DNA of 24,998 nucleotides from a virus. The DNA lies in the IMG/VR virus record IMGVR_UViG_3300035241_000033, positions 1-24,998 of that record. One strand, given 5' to 3'. The position numbers were made by a program, and so were the translations under genes. Shown here in pieces: positions 4,214-10,816 of this stretch. The first letter of the stretch is position 1; each line of letters starts with the position of its first letter. The notes under the pieces are model-generated. The model was given only the letters and a program-made list of their open reading frames with translations, searched no databases and was not told where the DNA came from.

Positions 4214-4494
4214 TGGCGGCCGGGTGGGCTCCTGGCTGCGGGATGATCACCGCCGCCTTCTGGTGCAGGGACTGTGGGCTCTACCACCGGCTGCCGGTGA
4301 TCGTCCACATGGGGGCGCTGCCGCCGGCTGTCATCATCGGCTCCGGCCCTGGGGCCGGCTACCAGTACAACCTGACCGCCGAGGACCTGGGCCAGACGGA
4401 CGGGCTCTCGGTGCCGGTCTACCGCCCCGTAGCGGAATTCGTCCTCCCTGACTTCCCGCCCATGGCGGCGAGGAAGAAGATCCCGAGCGTCTGA
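4213..4494 (+). CDS. Hypothetical phage protein, 93 aa
   Basis: Start by TGATG overlap with the previous stop. One CRDC pair (residues 18-21) followed by GLYHRLP gives three possible metal ligands near the N-terminus, but a second Cys pair is missing, so a complete zinc finger is not supported. The middle is Gly/Pro-rich (IIGSGPGAGYQYN) and the C-terminus is Pro-rich then basic. No family is recognised. It is coupled to the 304-residue gene by another TGATG. Confidence 0.65.
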   Translation: MAAGWAPGCGMITAAFWCRDCGLYHRLPVIVHMGALPPAVIIGSGPGAGYQYNLTAEDLGQTDGLSVPVYRPVAEFVLPDFPPMAARKKIPSV

Positions 4495-5408
4495 TGGCCG
4501 CCAGAAAGCGCAGCGAGCTCGAACGGTCCGAGGAGATCTTCTTCCTCGTGCAGCTCGCCCGGGCCATGGGCGATGAATTCGGCCCCACCGTGGCCGCCAA
4601 CATCCTCAACGAGCGCCGGGCGGCAGCCGCGCGCGAGACCGCCCGCGCGCTGGGGGCGTCCGACGACGAGGCCGAGCAGGCGGCCCGCGATGCCCAGCTC
4701 ACCCCTCAGCAGATCGGCATCGACGTCCGGGTCGCTCAAGAGCGCCTGCAGCAGGCGACCAACGTGGCGTCGGCGCTCTGGATCGATGACGACATCGCCG
4801 AGGTCTCGGGGCAGATCGCCCAGCTCGCGCGCCTGGCCGACATGATCCTCGAGGACCTCCAGGCCTCCCGCTCGGTCCGGTGGACGCGCACCAAGGGCGA
4901 GAAGGTGACGCGGAAGGTGAAGAAGCCCGGCCAGGACAAGGAGGTCGAGGAGTCGGCGCTCGAGCCCACGGGAATGGTGACCCATGCGGAGGACGGGCCC
5001 GCCCGGGCCGCCCTCTACATGGTCTATCTTCGCAACCTCGACCAGCAGGCCAAGCTCCGAGCCGAGCGCCGGCAGCTCCGCTTCGGCCGGCAGTGGTTCC
5101 CCGAGCAGCGACAGACCAGCTTCACCGAGGCGCTCCTCCAGACCGAAGACCCTGAGGCCGCGCGCAAGGCGGCGCTCGCCATGCTGGCCCGCGACATCGC
5201 CTCGCTCTGCCGGGATGAGCAATTCGCCCTGGCTCCGGCGACGGCGCAGTCGATCCAGGCCGAGCGGCTGCGGCTCACCGCGCAGGCGCAGCGGGTGCGG
5301 CAACTCCAGGAATTCGTCGAGGTGGTCTCGCCGGCGGACGGTCCCAAGGGCGGGGTCGAGGTGGTGGTGAGCCGGCGGACGGCACGCCCCGAGGCGGCCG
5401 GCGCATGA
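4494..5408 (+). CDS. Hypothetical alpha-helical protein, 304 aa; small terminase candidate by position
   Basis: I do not recognise a family. The protein is almost wholly helical and charged, with long Ala/Glu/Arg/Gln-rich stretches (about residues 40-120 and 195-285) that could form coiled coils. Between them is a basic segment (TKGEKVTRKVKKPGQDKE) that might contact DNA. It starts at a TGATG overlap and ends in ATGA overlap with the next gene, making a pair directly ahead of the terminase leader. Phages usually encode the small terminase subunit just before the large one, so this protein or the next is the best candidate here. There is no clear helix-turn-helix, and the assignment is positional only. 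Confidence 0.7.
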   Translation: MAARKRSELERSEEIFFLVQLARAMGDEFGPTVAANILNERRAAAARETARALGASDDEAEQAARDAQLTPQQIGIDVRVAQERLQQATNVASALWIDDDIAEVSGQIAQLARLADMILEDLQASRSVRWTRTKGEKVTRKVKKPGQDKEVEESALEPTGMVTHAEDGPARAALYMVYLRNLDQQAKLRAERRQLRFGRQWFPEQRQTSFTEALLQTEDPEAARKAALAMLARDIASLCRDEQFALAPATAQSIQAERLRLTAQAQRVRQLQEFVEVVSPADGPKGGVEVVVSRRTARPEAAGA

Positions 5409-5950
5409 TCGCCTTCCTGGTGGATGGACCAGCCGATGGGCGCATCCTGGCTGTCCAGGGCGCCGGCTCCCTCCGCTTCCCGGTTCGACAGAAGTTCACC
5501 CTGGTCGACCGGCTCCTCGGGGCCAACGAGCGCGCCCTCGCCTTTCTCCAGATCGCTCAGGACAGCCAGAAGAACGCCTTCGAGCTGCTCGCCGCGCTGG
5601 ATGCCTTCAAGGTGGCGACCGCCTGGCCGCGGCCGGGCCTGAAGCCTACGGAGAAGAGGTGGGAGGCCTCCCAGCTACTCGCGAGGCGGGCGGAGTACTG
5701 TGTGCTGGCTTTCCTCCGGTCCGTGTCTGAGATGTTCGGCGCTCCGGCTCACCCGACCGGGATCTTCGGCACCCCGCCGCCGGGCGGCAACGTCGCGCTC
5801 GACCGGCTGGAGGAGGTGATCCAGGCGGAGGCGGATCGGCACCCCGAGCAGGTGGCGAAGATGCAGGAGGCGCTCGACCGTATCCGAGTCCTGACCGGAA
5901 TGCGCCGCGGCGCCGATGGCAAGCCGCCAGGCAACCCGGGGACCAACTAA
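5405..5950 (+). CDS. Hypothetical phage protein, 181 aa, last gene before the terminase leader
   Basis: ATG 5405 overlaps the upstream stop (ATGA). The N-terminal 40 residues look beta-rich (IAFLVDGPADGRILAVQG, then RFPVRQKFTLVDRLLG), and the remainder is helical with a Gly/Pro linker (TGIFGTPPPGGN, about 119-130) before a last helical pair. No catalytic motif is visible. It could be a small terminase partner by position, or an unrelated early protein. The gene ends in a weak terminator-like hairpin. Confidence 0.7.
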   Translation: MIAFLVDGPADGRILAVQGAGSLRFPVRQKFTLVDRLLGANERALAFLQIAQDSQKNAFELLAALDAFKVATAWPRPGLKPTEKRWEASQLLARRAEYCVLAFLRSVSEMFGAPAHPTGIFGTPPPGGNVALDRLEEVIQAEADRHPEQVAKMQEALDRIRVLTGMRRGADGKPPGNPGTN

Positions 5951-5969
5951 CGCCCCGCTTACGTTTTTT
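5937..5969 (+). terminator. Weak rho-independent terminator candidate
   Basis: CGGGG (5937-5941) can pair with CCCCG (5953-5957) across an 11-base loop containing the TAA of the upstream gene. A run of six T (5964-5969) follows after six bases. The stem is short and the T run is offset, so strength is doubtful. The position at the end of the accessory gene run is right. Confidence 0.35.
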
Positions 5970-5998
5970 CCCCAATTTCAAAGACTCACCCTTAAAGG

Positions 5999-6023
5999 GG
6001 CCTGTTTGCCAGGAAAACAGGCC
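5999..6023 (+). other. Hairpin, 9-bp perfect stem, 7-base loop
   Basis: GGCCTGTTT (5999-6007) is the exact reverse complement of AAACAGGCC (6015-6023), with loop GCCAGGA. No T run follows on either strand, so it is not a standard intrinsic terminator. It could be an RNA structure, a protein site, or part of a packaging signal. Confidence 0.7.
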
Positions 6024-6089
6024 GTAAATGGGTGGTTTTACCCAGATTCTCCCTCTATGCTGGGGCGAAATTCCCCGCACCAAGGCATC

Positions 6090-6119
6090 TAGACATCTTG
6101 GTGTTTTGGTGCCTAGAAT
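6090..6119 (+). promoter_or_regulatory. Promoter-like pair ahead of the terminase
   Basis: TAGACA (6090-6095, 5/6 to the -35 consensus) and TAGAAT (6114-6119, 5/6 to the -10 consensus) are 18 bases apart. It overlaps the TCTAGA at 6088-6093, a hexamer also found in both arms of the operator candidate at 1113-1133. A late promoter for terminase and head genes is plausible. The match is by eye only. Confidence 0.4.
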
Positions 6120-6156
6120 TCTCGAAACCCCGATGCCCCGCCCCGCGGCATAGGAA

Positions 6157-6203
6157 GGGGGCGAGCCGGCCGGAAGAGTAGGGCGCCGGTCGCGCTCGCC
6201 CCC
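6157..6203 (+). other. Strong GC hairpin 28 bases before the terminase start
   Basis: GGGGGCGAGC (6157-6166) is exactly complementary to GCTCGCCCCC (6194-6203), a 10-bp stem. Four more pairs (CGGC 6167-6170 with GCCG 6185-6188) can stack inside beyond a 3' bulge. The terminase GTG at 6232 has no visible Shine-Dalgarno, so this structure may influence its translation, or it may be a DNA signal for packaging. Confidence 0.7.
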
Positions 6204-6231
6204 GCCAGTACTCCCCGTCTACACTTCCCAG

Positions 6232-8418
6232 GTGCGTCCCCGGATCGAGCTGGATCTGTTCGACAGGCAGGCGGATGCTCTGGAGAGCCGCCTCGACGAG
6301 CTGCTGGTCGGAGGCGACCAGGGCCGGGGCGGGTGCTCGTACCTGCTGCGCGCCATGGCGGCCGTCCTGTGCTTTGAGACGCCGGGCCTTCGCGCGGTCC
6401 TGGTCCAGAAGAACGAGGGCGAGTTGCGCAAGTCCCACCTCGAGGGGCCGGACGGGTTGGTGGCTCTCCTCGCCGACGCCCAGCGCTCCAACGCCGTCAC
6501 CGTCACCCCCAACGAGATCCGCTTCTGGAACGGATCCTCGATCCGCTGGTCGGGCTGCGCCCGGGATGCCGAGGTCTCCCGGCTGCTCGAGCAGCGAGTG
6601 GACTTCCTCGCCGTCGACAACCTGCATGAGGTCCCCGAGGCGCTCTACAGCCGGCTGCGCGACCGGGTGCTGACGGGCGTGGGGCCGCTGCGCCGGATCG
6701 TGGCGGCCTCAAACCGGGTCTCCGAGGGGTGGGTGGCTAGACACTGGAATGGCATCCACGTCCCCGGCCGCGGCTTCATCCCTATGGGACCGGCCGACAT
6801 CGACCCGGAGCTCCGCGAGGGCAAGGCGCCGCGGTCCTTCCGGGACTTCATCAACGACGTCCGCCCCGGCTTCAAGTGGCTGCCGCACACCGAGATCCTG
6901 GTCCGGGTGATCCAGGGGCTGGTCGACGGGCTCTATCCCAACGTTGCCGTCTTCATGCCTCCTCAGCACGGCAAGAGCGAGTGCGGGCCGCGGCTGGGCG
7001 CCGCCTACAAGACGGAGCGCTTCCCGACCGACTGGACCGGCATTGCCTCCTACGCCACCCAGAAGGCGAACGAGCGCAACTTCGACGCTCGGGAGTACTT
7101 CCGCCGCGCCGGCGGCGAGGTCCGCTTCGGCGCCGCGGCGGTCAACTCCTGGCAGACGCTCTACGGGGGCGGCTGCTGGTCCGCCGGCGTCGCGGCCGGC
7201 CAGACCGGAAACCCGATGACCACCGGCATCATCGACGATCCGGACAAGGACCTGGCCGACGCGATCTCCCCGACCGAGCGGGACAAGAAACGGGCGTGGT
7301 ACCGGGACGTCTGGCGCGCCCGGGAGAGCATGTTCGGCGAGACTCCGCTCTCCCAGCTCCTCATCCAGACCCGCTGGGACACCGAGGACACCGGCTCCTA
7401 CATCTTGCGCCGGGCGGCCGAGGCCGGAGAGCGGTGGCACATCGTCTGCCTGCCGGCGCTTTACGATCCGGACGTCCCGCGGCAGTTCACCGACCCGGGG
7501 GTGGTGGCCGAGGTGTTCGGGAAGAAGTACGCCGATCTCTTCCCGCAGTGCTTCACCGTCGAGCCCGACTGGCGAACGGAGCCCGGCGAGGCGATCTGGC
7601 CAGACCGACGCTCCCGCGAGGAGTGGGAAAACTTCCGCGACAACGTGGTCGGCCCCATGATCTTCGCGGCCGAGTGGCAACAGAACCCGCGGCCGGCGGT
7701 CGGCGGCGGCATCCTAGACCGGACGTGGTTCCACGTCATCTACCCGGACCAGGTCGCCGAGCTCGGCGCGGCCGAGACTTCCTGCCGCGCCTGGGACGAC
7801 GGCGCCACCGAGGACGGCGGCGATTCGACGGCCGGCATCCTCATGGACCGCCTGCGCGGCACGGGCCCGGTGCAGTTCCTGATCCGCCACGCGATCGAGG
7901 CGAAGATCGCCGGCGCCAAGGTGAAGCCGCTCAAGGTGGAAACCGCCAAGGCCGATGGCCACGGCGTCTACGTGAAGATTCCCCAGGACCCGGGCGGCTC
8001 CGGCAAGACCGATGCCGAGGCGACAGAGGCGGCGCTGGTCGCGGCAGGCCACCCGCGGGACCGAGTCATCAAACACCGACCGAGCGGCTCGAAGGTCCTG
8101 CGTGCGCGCGACTTCGCCTCCGCCGCCTCGCCGCCGCCGGGCCAGGCCCGGGGCAAGGTCGGCATCCTGGTCGACGAGCGCGGCTACGTCGGGGGCGGCT
8201 ACGAGGGGGAGGTGGCGATCACCACCCGCAGGACCAAGGAGATCTTCGGCGGCGACTCGAAGGAATACAGTGGCGGCGGCTCGGTGCCGCTCGCCCGTAT
8301 CCTTGAGCAGTTCCACCGCTTTACCGGGGCCGATGGCCAGGAGGACGATCTTGTCGACTCGGCGGCCGATGCCCACGCCCAGGTGGCCAAGCCGCGGAAA
8401 AAGCTGTCCGTTTTTTGA
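6232..8418 (+). CDS. terL: Terminase large subunit with an extra, degenerate N-terminal ATPase domain
   Basis: This is the packaging motor ATPase and nuclease, 728 residues. Residues 240-728 form a complete large terminase: Walker A PPQHGKS (243-249), Walker B GIIDDP (332-337), coupling-motif region LLIQTRW (376-382), and an RNase H-like nuclease with RAWDDGATEDGGD (519-531) and the distal EDDLVD (704-709). Residues 24-175 look like a second terminase ATPase of another subtype, with GGDQGRGGCSYLLRA (27-41) where GGxxGGGKSYLLRA is usual, VDFLAVDNLHE (123-133) where an ID-E Walker B is usual, and an AASN coupling motif (158-161). The Walker A Lys and catalytic Glu are missing, so this copy is probably inactive. 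GTG 6232 is the first start after TAG 6151 and lacks a ribosome binding site. ATG 6784 could give a conventional-size protein but also lacks one. Confidence 0.9.
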   Translation: MRPRIELDLFDRQADALESRLDELLVGGDQGRGGCSYLLRAMAAVLCFETPGLRAVLVQKNEGELRKSHLEGPDGLVALLADAQRSNAVTVTPNEIRFWNGSSIRWSGCARDAEVSRLLEQRVDFLAVDNLHEVPEALYSRLRDRVLTGVGPLRRIVAASNRVSEGWVARHWNGIHVPGRGFIPMGPADIDPELREGKAPRSFRDFINDVRPGFKWLPHTEILVRVIQGLVDGLYPNVAVFMPPQHGKSECGPRLGAAYKTERFPTDWTGIASYATQKANERNFDAREYFRRAGGEVRFGAAAVNSWQTLYGGGCWSAGVAAGQTGNPMTTGIIDDPDKDLADAISPTERDKKRAWYRDVWRARESMFGETPLSQLLIQTRWDTEDTGSYILRRAAEAGERWHIVCLPALYDPDVPRQFTDPGVVAEVFGKKYADLFPQCFTVEPDWRTEPGEAIWPDRRSREEWENFRDNVVGPMIFAAEWQQNPRPAVGGGILDRTWFHVIYPDQVAELGAAETSCRAWDDGATEDGGDSTAGILMDRLRGTGPVQFLIRHAIEAKIAGAKVKPLKVETAKADGHGVYVKIPQDPGGSGKTDAEATEAALVAAGHPRDRVIKHRPSGSKVLRARDFASAASPPPGQARGKVGILVDERGYVGGGYEGEVAITTRRTKEIFGGDSKEYSGGGSVPLARILEQFHRFTGADGQEDDLVDSAADAHAQVAKPRKKLSVF

Positions 8419-9508: not shown

Positions 9509-10816
9509 ATGAGTCTAGCTGAGAGGGTTTGGGGCGCCCTGAACGCCCTCCGCTCGCCGCATCCCTCGTACCTGCGGCGCTTCAGCGTCCCGGTGGAGGC
9601 GCTCGCAACGGCGCGTCCCCCGATCTCTGGCCGGCTGCTCGACTGGCAGACCACGACCCCGCAGTATCCCCCCGCCAACTTCCGCACCTTCACCACCTTC
9701 GGCTACCGGCACAACACCGTCTTCCGCCGCTGCGTCGACGTCTTGGGCGGGGCGGCCTGCCAGGCCCGGGTGACGGTCGTGGAGCGCGGCACCGCCAGGC
9801 CGATGCCGCTCCACCCCATGCTTCGAGTCTTTCGCGAGCCGGCGCCGCGAGTGACGGAGAAGACCCTCTGGAAGCGCTTCATCCAGGACGGCTACACGAC
9901 CGGCAATGCGATCTGGGAGAAGGTCCGGGCGGTGGGTTCCGACGAGGTGGTAGAGCTCTGGCGCATGGAGCCCGGGCGCACGGCGATCGAGCCCGACCAA
10001 AACGGCGTCCCTCGCCGCTACCTCTACTCGATCATGGGGAAGTGGTGGCCGATCCCGGCGGAGAACATCCTGCATTGGAAGTTCCCCGACCCGCTGCAGC
10101 CCTACTTCGGCATTCCCCCGATCTACTCCGCCTTCCGCGACCTCTCCGTCGACAACGAGCTGATCGACCACTTCAAGGTGACCCTCCAGAACCTAGCCGT
10201 ACCCGCCGTCGTGCTGGAGCACGAGGAGGCGATCGAAGAGGAGGAGGCCGAGGAGGCGCGCCGCAAGTGGAAGATGAAATATGGCGGCTTCCGCAAGGGC
10301 GAGCCGGCGGTGGTGGGGGGCGGCACCAAGGTCAACGTGATCGGCATGGACATGCAGAAGATGGCGATCTCCGAGCTGATCTCCACCTCGGAAAGCCGGA
10401 TCGCCATGGTGCATGGGGTGCCGATGATGCTCCTGGGCCGCTCAGGGACGCTGGCCGACCCGACCCGGGCCAACTATGCCGAGGCGAAAGAGCACTTCTA
10501 TACGGACACCGTGCTTCCGCTCCTATCCGAGATCGCCGAGGAATTGACCGCCTTCCTGCTCTCCGAATGGGAGGGGGCCGACCAGCTCGAGGCGATGTTC
10601 GACACCACCGGCATCCCGGTCCTTCAGGAGGCGAAGTTGCGCCGCGGAACGGCCGCCTCGAAGCTCTTCACGGATGGGCTGGTATCCCGGCACGAGAGCC
10701 AGCGCCTGGCCGGCGTCGCCGTTCATGGGCCCGACGTCTTCTACCGCTCCTCGAACATCGGGGGGATTGTCCCGGCCGATGCTCAGGAGGAAGTACTCGA
10801 GCTGACCGAGGCGTAG
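9509..10816 (+). CDS. HK97-family portal protein
   Basis: The 435 residues fit the Phage_portal family (PF04860-like). There is an N-terminal region with FTTFGYRHNTVFRRCVDVLGG, then LHPMLRVFREPAPRVTEKTLWKRF in which the middle L-x-x-P-N/A-P-x-x-T pattern is typical, then YTTGNAIWEK, an FGIPPIYSAF stretch for the G-x-S/P-P family motif, and the wing-helix region with the acidic EEAIEEEEAEEARRKWK. Near 305 is IAMVHGVPMMLLGRSG, matching the I-A-x-x-F-G-V-P-x-x-x-L-G signature. The protein forms the ring at the capsid vertex through which the terminase pumps DNA. ATG 9509 lies 51 bases after the MuF-like gene, with only a weak AAGG-type ribosome binding site. Confidence 0.93.
   Translation: MSLAERVWGALNALRSPHPSYLRRFSVPVEALATARPPISGRLLDWQTTTPQYPPANFRTFTTFGYRHNTVFRRCVDVLGGAACQARVTVVERGTARPMPLHPMLRVFREPAPRVTEKTLWKRFIQDGYTTGNAIWEKVRAVGSDEVVELWRMEPGRTAIEPDQNGVPRRYLYSIMGKWWPIPAENILHWKFPDPLQPYFGIPPIYSAFRDLSVDNELIDHFKVTLQNLAVPAVVLEHEEAIEEEEAEEARRKWKMKYGGFRKGEPAVVGGGTKVNVIGMDMQKMAISELISTSESRIAMVHGVPMMLLGRSGTLADPTRANYAEAKEHFYTDTVLPLLSEIAEELTAFLLSEWEGADQLEAMFDTTGIPVLQEAKLRRGTAASKLFTDGLVSRHESQRLAGVAVHGPDVFYRSSNIGGIVPADAQEEVLELTEA

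Follow-up and report, generated by a model that had tools for sequence, protein, structure and literature searches.

Two terminase-type ATPase domains in tandem, the first without its catalytic residues, in one large-subunit gene of a metagenomic virus

A terminase large subunit (TerL) gene was found in the virus record IMGVR_UViG_3300035241_000033 of IMG/VR, in which two terminase-type ATPase domains, each of a different TerL subtype, are carried by one chain of 728 aa. The gene lies at 6232..8418 of the window, that is, of the whole stretch of 24,998 nucleotides that was analyzed. Few phage proteins are as uniform as TerLs, which have one ATPase and one nuclease. Here the first ATPase domain has lost the residues needed for catalysis, and the second is intact and is followed by a nuclease domain. 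The tandem ATPases are confirmed by the unbroken frame, by the homologies of both halves and by the modelled folds, and the arrangement is an unusual one; its function is what we infer.

The open reading frame runs without interruption through 728 codons, from a GTG at 6232 to a stop codon whose last base is 8418, on the plus strand like its domains and the leader ahead of it. The coding signal and the homology both begin at GTG 6232. Codon-position GC is 0.73/0.47/0.91 at 6232-6783 and 0.68/0.50/0.92 in the second half, with similar values in other genes, thus the codon-position composition is uniform across the fusion; the signal is absent from the 78 bases upstream of 6232. Shine-Dalgarno sequences were found neither at GTG 6232 nor at ATG 6784, many other genes in the window have one, and translation start at GTG 6232 is not proven. 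The initial annotation had named three findings that would speak against its reading, namely a fold of residues 1-184 other than a P-loop ATPase, a frame error joining two genes, and relatives that all start near ATG 6784. None of the three was observed: the domain is modelled as a P-loop ATPase, no sign of a frame error was seen at 6232-8418, and the gene's coding signal and homology start at 6232 rather than at ATG 6784. The relatives of each half are separate single-ATPase proteins, which leaves no relative of the fusion for a comparison of starts. The non-coding leader of 281 bp (5951..6231) holds inverted repeats at 5999-6023, 6069-6120 and 6157-6203 along with one sigma-70-like match at 6090-6119, and it is possibly a promoter or a packaging site. 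Elsewhere in the window, an ORF at 321-743 matches only the C-terminal part of longer DNA methyltransferase profiles, and a frame at 86-589 overlaps it.

The N-terminal domain (aa 1-175; 6232..6756) is homologous to the ATPase core of the Rosemountvirus-type TerL, as found by tblastn, alignments A1 and A4, AlphaFold and Foldseek. In the PHROG profile search aa 1-184 matched the phrog_979 TerL, and the profile match of the domain to the first-type TerL has an i-Evalue of 1e-33; the same segment alone matched no Pfam family well. By tblastn 102 phage records were matched, mostly in genes annotated as TerL, the best at about 1e-19 and with a span of 90% of the domain. Foldseek matches to terminase structures agree with these searches, and chance similarity to TerL ATPases is excluded. 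Identity to the ATPase core of the Salmonella phage BP63-type TerL is about 31-34%, and the matched segment of the BP63 protein is this core, from its first residues to past the coupling motif. BP63 and its relatives (Rosemountvirus; phrog_979/phrog_2) align with aa 1-172 with the same start and the same order of elements. However, the BP63 TerL has 482 aa, one ATPase with GGAAGGGKS and DE, and its own nuclease, whereas the present protein holds only the core with the catalytic residues lost. The homology of the core places the domain with the BP63-type (phrog_979/phrog_2) TerLs, and it departs from them in lacking the P-loop Lys, the Walker B Glu, a nuclease of its own after the ATPase, and the plan of about 480-520 aa with one ATPase per chain. 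A further stretch of first-type homology at aa 182-195 (FIP...DPEL) was considered and set aside; tblastn reaches aa 203 and the profile ends at about aa 172.

The loss of catalytic residues was analyzed in alignment A4, in which the N-terminal domain is set against 77 relatives, taken from IMG/VR and from GTDB contigs. The P-loop GGDQGRGGCS (aa 27-36; 6310..6339) is one residue longer than the GGAAGGGKS of the relatives and has Cys at aa 35 in place of the Lys present in 77/77 of them. In the Walker B segment FLAVDN (aa 125-130; 6604..6621), which has VDN against the DE of the relatives, Asp129 is kept and the catalytic Glu130, again present in 77/77, is replaced by Asn. The coupling motif survives as a remnant, IVAASNR (aa 156-162; 6697..6717), with SN-R where the relatives have SNPGG. 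The conserved Arg59, Gly120 and Glu122 are also absent, and the P-loop glycines remain, as do Asp129 and many positions of the fold; in all, roughly half of the near-invariant columns of the family are retained. Among the wider first-type relatives from IMG/VR and genomes, those with a readable P-loop have a single ATPase and a motif ending in GK[ST]. The motif losses claimed in the initial annotation therefore stand, since Lys and Glu are invariant in the 77 relatives, and they are extended by the inserted P-loop residue and by conserved homology ending near aa 172. Sequencing error was considered as the source of the dead P-loop and rejected: the DNA at 6310-6339 has no AA dinucleotide, so there is no lysine codon in any frame and no simple base error or frame slip restores the Lys. 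Judged by Cys35, Asn130, the longer P-loop and the broken NPGG, the first ATPase is predicted to be catalytically dead.

After a linker of about aa 173-200 (6748..6831), which is predicted to be flexible, aa 201-728 form a complete phrog_38-type TerL whose catalytic residues are intact. The phrog_38 profile covers residues 193-724 (E=3e-42), and the segment of the second ATPase alone (about aa 201-500; 6832..7731) gives 1e-33. The C-terminal 544 residues are ~29-32% identical to the TerLs of BDU-MI-1, phiAO1, vir524 and a Leptospira plasmid. Alignment with relatives places the P-loop PPQHGKS at aa 243-249 (6958..6978) and the Walker B motif GIIDDP at aa 332-337 (7225..7242); the Gln of PPQHGKS is a common variant among phrog_38-type TerLs. 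A nuclease domain of RNase H-like type follows at about aa 505-728 (7744..8415); it matches phrog_979 and phrog_38 and keeps Asp522 and Asp709. In an alignment with 39 relatives 40/49 near-invariant columns are kept in the second ATPase and nuclease, among them Lys248, Asp335/336, TRW380-382 and the two nuclease aspartates, so that the motifs of the ATPase (P-loop, Walker B, coupling) and the aspartates of the nuclease are all those of a phrog_38-type TerL, and the earlier description of this half as intact holds. Neither the full protein nor its C-terminal part gave a terminase match in Pfam (Terminase_6N / Terminase_6C) above the gathering score; the phrog_38-type members BDU-MI-1 and vir524 do match terminase Pfam. 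Conservation of these motifs suggests that the second ATPase drives packaging and that the nuclease cuts.

The likeness to phrog_38-type TerLs (Bradyrhizobium phage BDU-MI-1, Leptospira plasmid pLiSL32 and the IMG/VR loci L199-L210) thus covers aa 201-728 with the ATPase and nuclease motifs, but the open frames of those relatives are mostly of 440-580 aa and have no pseudo-ATPase, and the present protein also has an insertion in the nuclease. This insertion of roughly 40-55 residues (aa 634-690; ~8131-8300) is not in the relatives aligned in A6 and has low model confidence. Derivation of the nuclease from the first TerL type was also considered and dropped, as such a nuclease type accompanies both ATPase types. 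In Gordonia phage Chidiebere, Pseudomonas phage PAK_P1 and Erwinia phage M7 (L194, L195 and L196) a GGAAG-type ATPase is paired with a nuclease type found elsewhere behind a PPRHGKS-type ATPase, and this pairing suggests that TerL subtypes have exchanged ATPase and nuclease modules.

Structure prediction was done for the N-terminal part and for the full chain. The AlphaFold model of aa 1-190 has a mean pLDDT of 90 and a pTM of 0.88, and it was modelled as a P-loop ATPase whose top PDB matches by Foldseek are the TerL ATPases of Sf6 gp2, D6E, P74-26 and T4 (E about 1e-6 to 1e-5, TM 0.59-0.73). Active relatives made up the alignment behind this model, so that even a relic would come out looking folded, and therefore it gives the would-be fold of the domain and not proof that the present copy still folds. 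The full-length model, based on alignment A6, has a mean pLDDT of 78 with both ATPase cores confident and aa 152-197 low (<50), and its best PDB match is the Avs3-bound PhiV-1 terminase, 8dgc.

The two halves do not look like copies of one another. BLASTP between aa 1-184 and the C-terminal part gave no meaningful similarity, and each half has separate TerL relatives; ATPase domains of different TerL subtypes mean a fusion and not a duplication, which is in line with the first reading of the sequence as a fusion or insertion. Against 50,697 phage records the full 728-aa protein matched 1,299, and 0 of these cover 80% of the query.

The fusion is also rare. A second example was searched for in 50,697 phage records, in 72,556 plasmids, in about 1,590 genomes covering five phyla and among the matches listed from pattern-sampled IMG/VR and GTDB contigs, and none was found in these collections. 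The N-terminal domain stands ahead of a phrog_38-type TerL in 0/80 IMG/VR relatives, and three IMG/VR virus records of 24.7-59.5 kb, in which the second half has close relatives, show no match to the first half. Close relatives were also looked for at the level of the whole virus, in IMG/VR with its TerL, portal and capsid protein as queries and in GTDB contigs with its TerL; nothing usable came up beyond one remote portal match. The DNA pattern of the dead P-loop was found across IMG/VR in 50 stretches, 1 of them with a weak match to the N-terminal domain, and alignment-guided scans with this domain and with the second ATPase gave only single-ATPase TerLs among the matches listed. The IMG/VR and GTDB scans were seeded from short peptide patterns and represent samples of these collections, so the rarity of the fusion is well supported and its uniqueness is not proven; the present case stands alone, in a virus without close relatives. 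A described TerL with two ATPase domains was not found in the literature searched either, and the remark that no terminase of such a plan had been described survives within the collections used. Long-frame matches in Acidobacteriota were examined as further fusions and rejected, being second-type TerLs with other extensions or insertions. Three phrog_38-type TerLs of Acidobacteriota prophages (L340, G183:C1; L341, G115:C7; L342, G151:C14) carry an in-frame N-terminal extension that is helix-turn-helix-like by eye and is possibly a natural fusion of small and large subunit; Pfam gave nothing for the two that were scanned.

With a single example of the fusion, selection on the N-terminal domain is not measurable by comparing relatives, and the domain itself was analyzed for signs of constraint. 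Hydrophobic columns are kept hydrophobic in 58/70 cases, and at residues never seen in relatives the hydrophobic pattern is 14:9 vs 4:17 (p=0.007). From this pattern and the codon-position GC the coding sequence looks still constrained as a protein. The end branch of the domain is long, 7.62 vs a median of 0.43.

The reading that we prefer, tentatively and at a little short of an even chance, is that the fused domain, once part of a motor, persists as a folded accessory that hydrolyses no ATP and probably serves in docking or assembly. By recombination within the packaging module, the front of a BP63-like TerL would have been joined in frame to a complete phrog_38-like TerL, and the first copy would have lost its catalytic residues at some point. 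Packaging and cutting would then be left to the second ATPase and nuclease, and the first copy, free of ATP hydrolysis, would have diverged fast yet stayed folded, tethered on every motor subunit. Its likeliest job would be docking or assembly to the portal, the small subunit or neighbouring motor subunits via surfaces inherited from its motor past. The long end branch is expected on this accessory reading because the ATPase constraint is lifted. Against the reading weigh the single example of the fusion, the reliance of the AlphaFold model on active relatives, the missing Shine-Dalgarno sequence at GTG 6232 and the origin from one metagenomic contig. Mfd offers a precedent in which one chain has a UvrB-like module with degenerate ATPase motifs ahead of an active DNA translocase (PMC3084762); it is not homologous as a system, and it acts in cellular repair, where its partners are known. 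Packaging motors of T4 tolerate doping with ATPase-defective gp17, at reduced performance (PMC8589836), so the presence of a dead ATPase need not in itself be lethal to a packaging ring. The doped T4 motors likewise combine dead with active ATPases, but there whole dead mutant subunits of the same protein are mixed in, whereas each chain here would bring an intact domain together with a dead one of other ancestry.

Nearly as likely as this accessory role is a harmless leftover, in which recombination swapped an old TerL for a new one and the remaining front half was fused, tolerated and is now decaying without function. The end branch of 7.62, the loss of about half of the near-invariant positions, the absence of the part of the ATPase domain beyond the core and the lack of a second example in the collections searched are all consistent with decay, and motor swaps are plausible as portals of the same family as that of the window (9509-10816) adjoin both TerL types (the first in L164, the second in L199 and L207). 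However, codon-position bias does not differ from that in ordinary genes, and new residues still follow the hydrophobic pattern; moreover, a dispensable domain of 175 aa before an essential motor should vanish fast in a compact phage genome. Two things favour docking or assembly over the leftover, namely the persistence of the coding and hydrophobic patterns and the Mfd precedent. It is also conceivable, if unlikely, that the non-hydrolysing ATPase folds form a layer of their own, a built-in docking element or clamp replacing a separate protein, with one live and one dead ATPase in every subunit.

Improbable, in our estimate, is a built-in substitute for the small subunit, which would bind the packaging site or DNA and bring the motor. 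The initial annotation had proposed such a replacement, help in ring assembly or DNA binding, none of which found support in the analysis. Scans of window proteins against PHROGs and Pfam recognised no small subunit, and the other in-frame extension borne by the Acidobacteriota prophage TerLs of the same type indicates that this N-terminus tolerates added modules. However, the N-terminal domain is an ATPase fold and not a helix-turn-helix, and one of the two genes directly upstream of TerL, 4494-5408 (304 aa) or 5405-5950 (181 aa), neither of which has a match in the 50,697 phage records, could be the small subunit. An assembly chimera, that is, an in-silico joining of fragments of unrelated genes, is slightly less probable still: the gene comes from a single metagenomic contig and no relative shares its plan, but the reading frame continues across the join, the two sides agree in GC and codon usage, the N-terminal part begins where the domain properly begins, and relatives with a readable P-loop have it intact, so that an already-dead partner would be needed. 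Avs-type STAND proteins bind TerL, and a dead look-alike ATPase might act as a decoy or shield that misleads such a terminase-sensing defence, but this is hardly credible as it stands, being pure analogy, and the best full-length match 8dgc shows only that such sensors recognise TerL.

If the preferred accessory reading is true, packaging motors can absorb the domain of another motor and use it without ATP. This would help to tell what the ATPase fold does in docking and assembly apart from what it does in hydrolysis, which so far has been addressed by doping motors with mutants, and the gene is a rare example from nature in which to ask which functions a motor domain can retain once it is dead.
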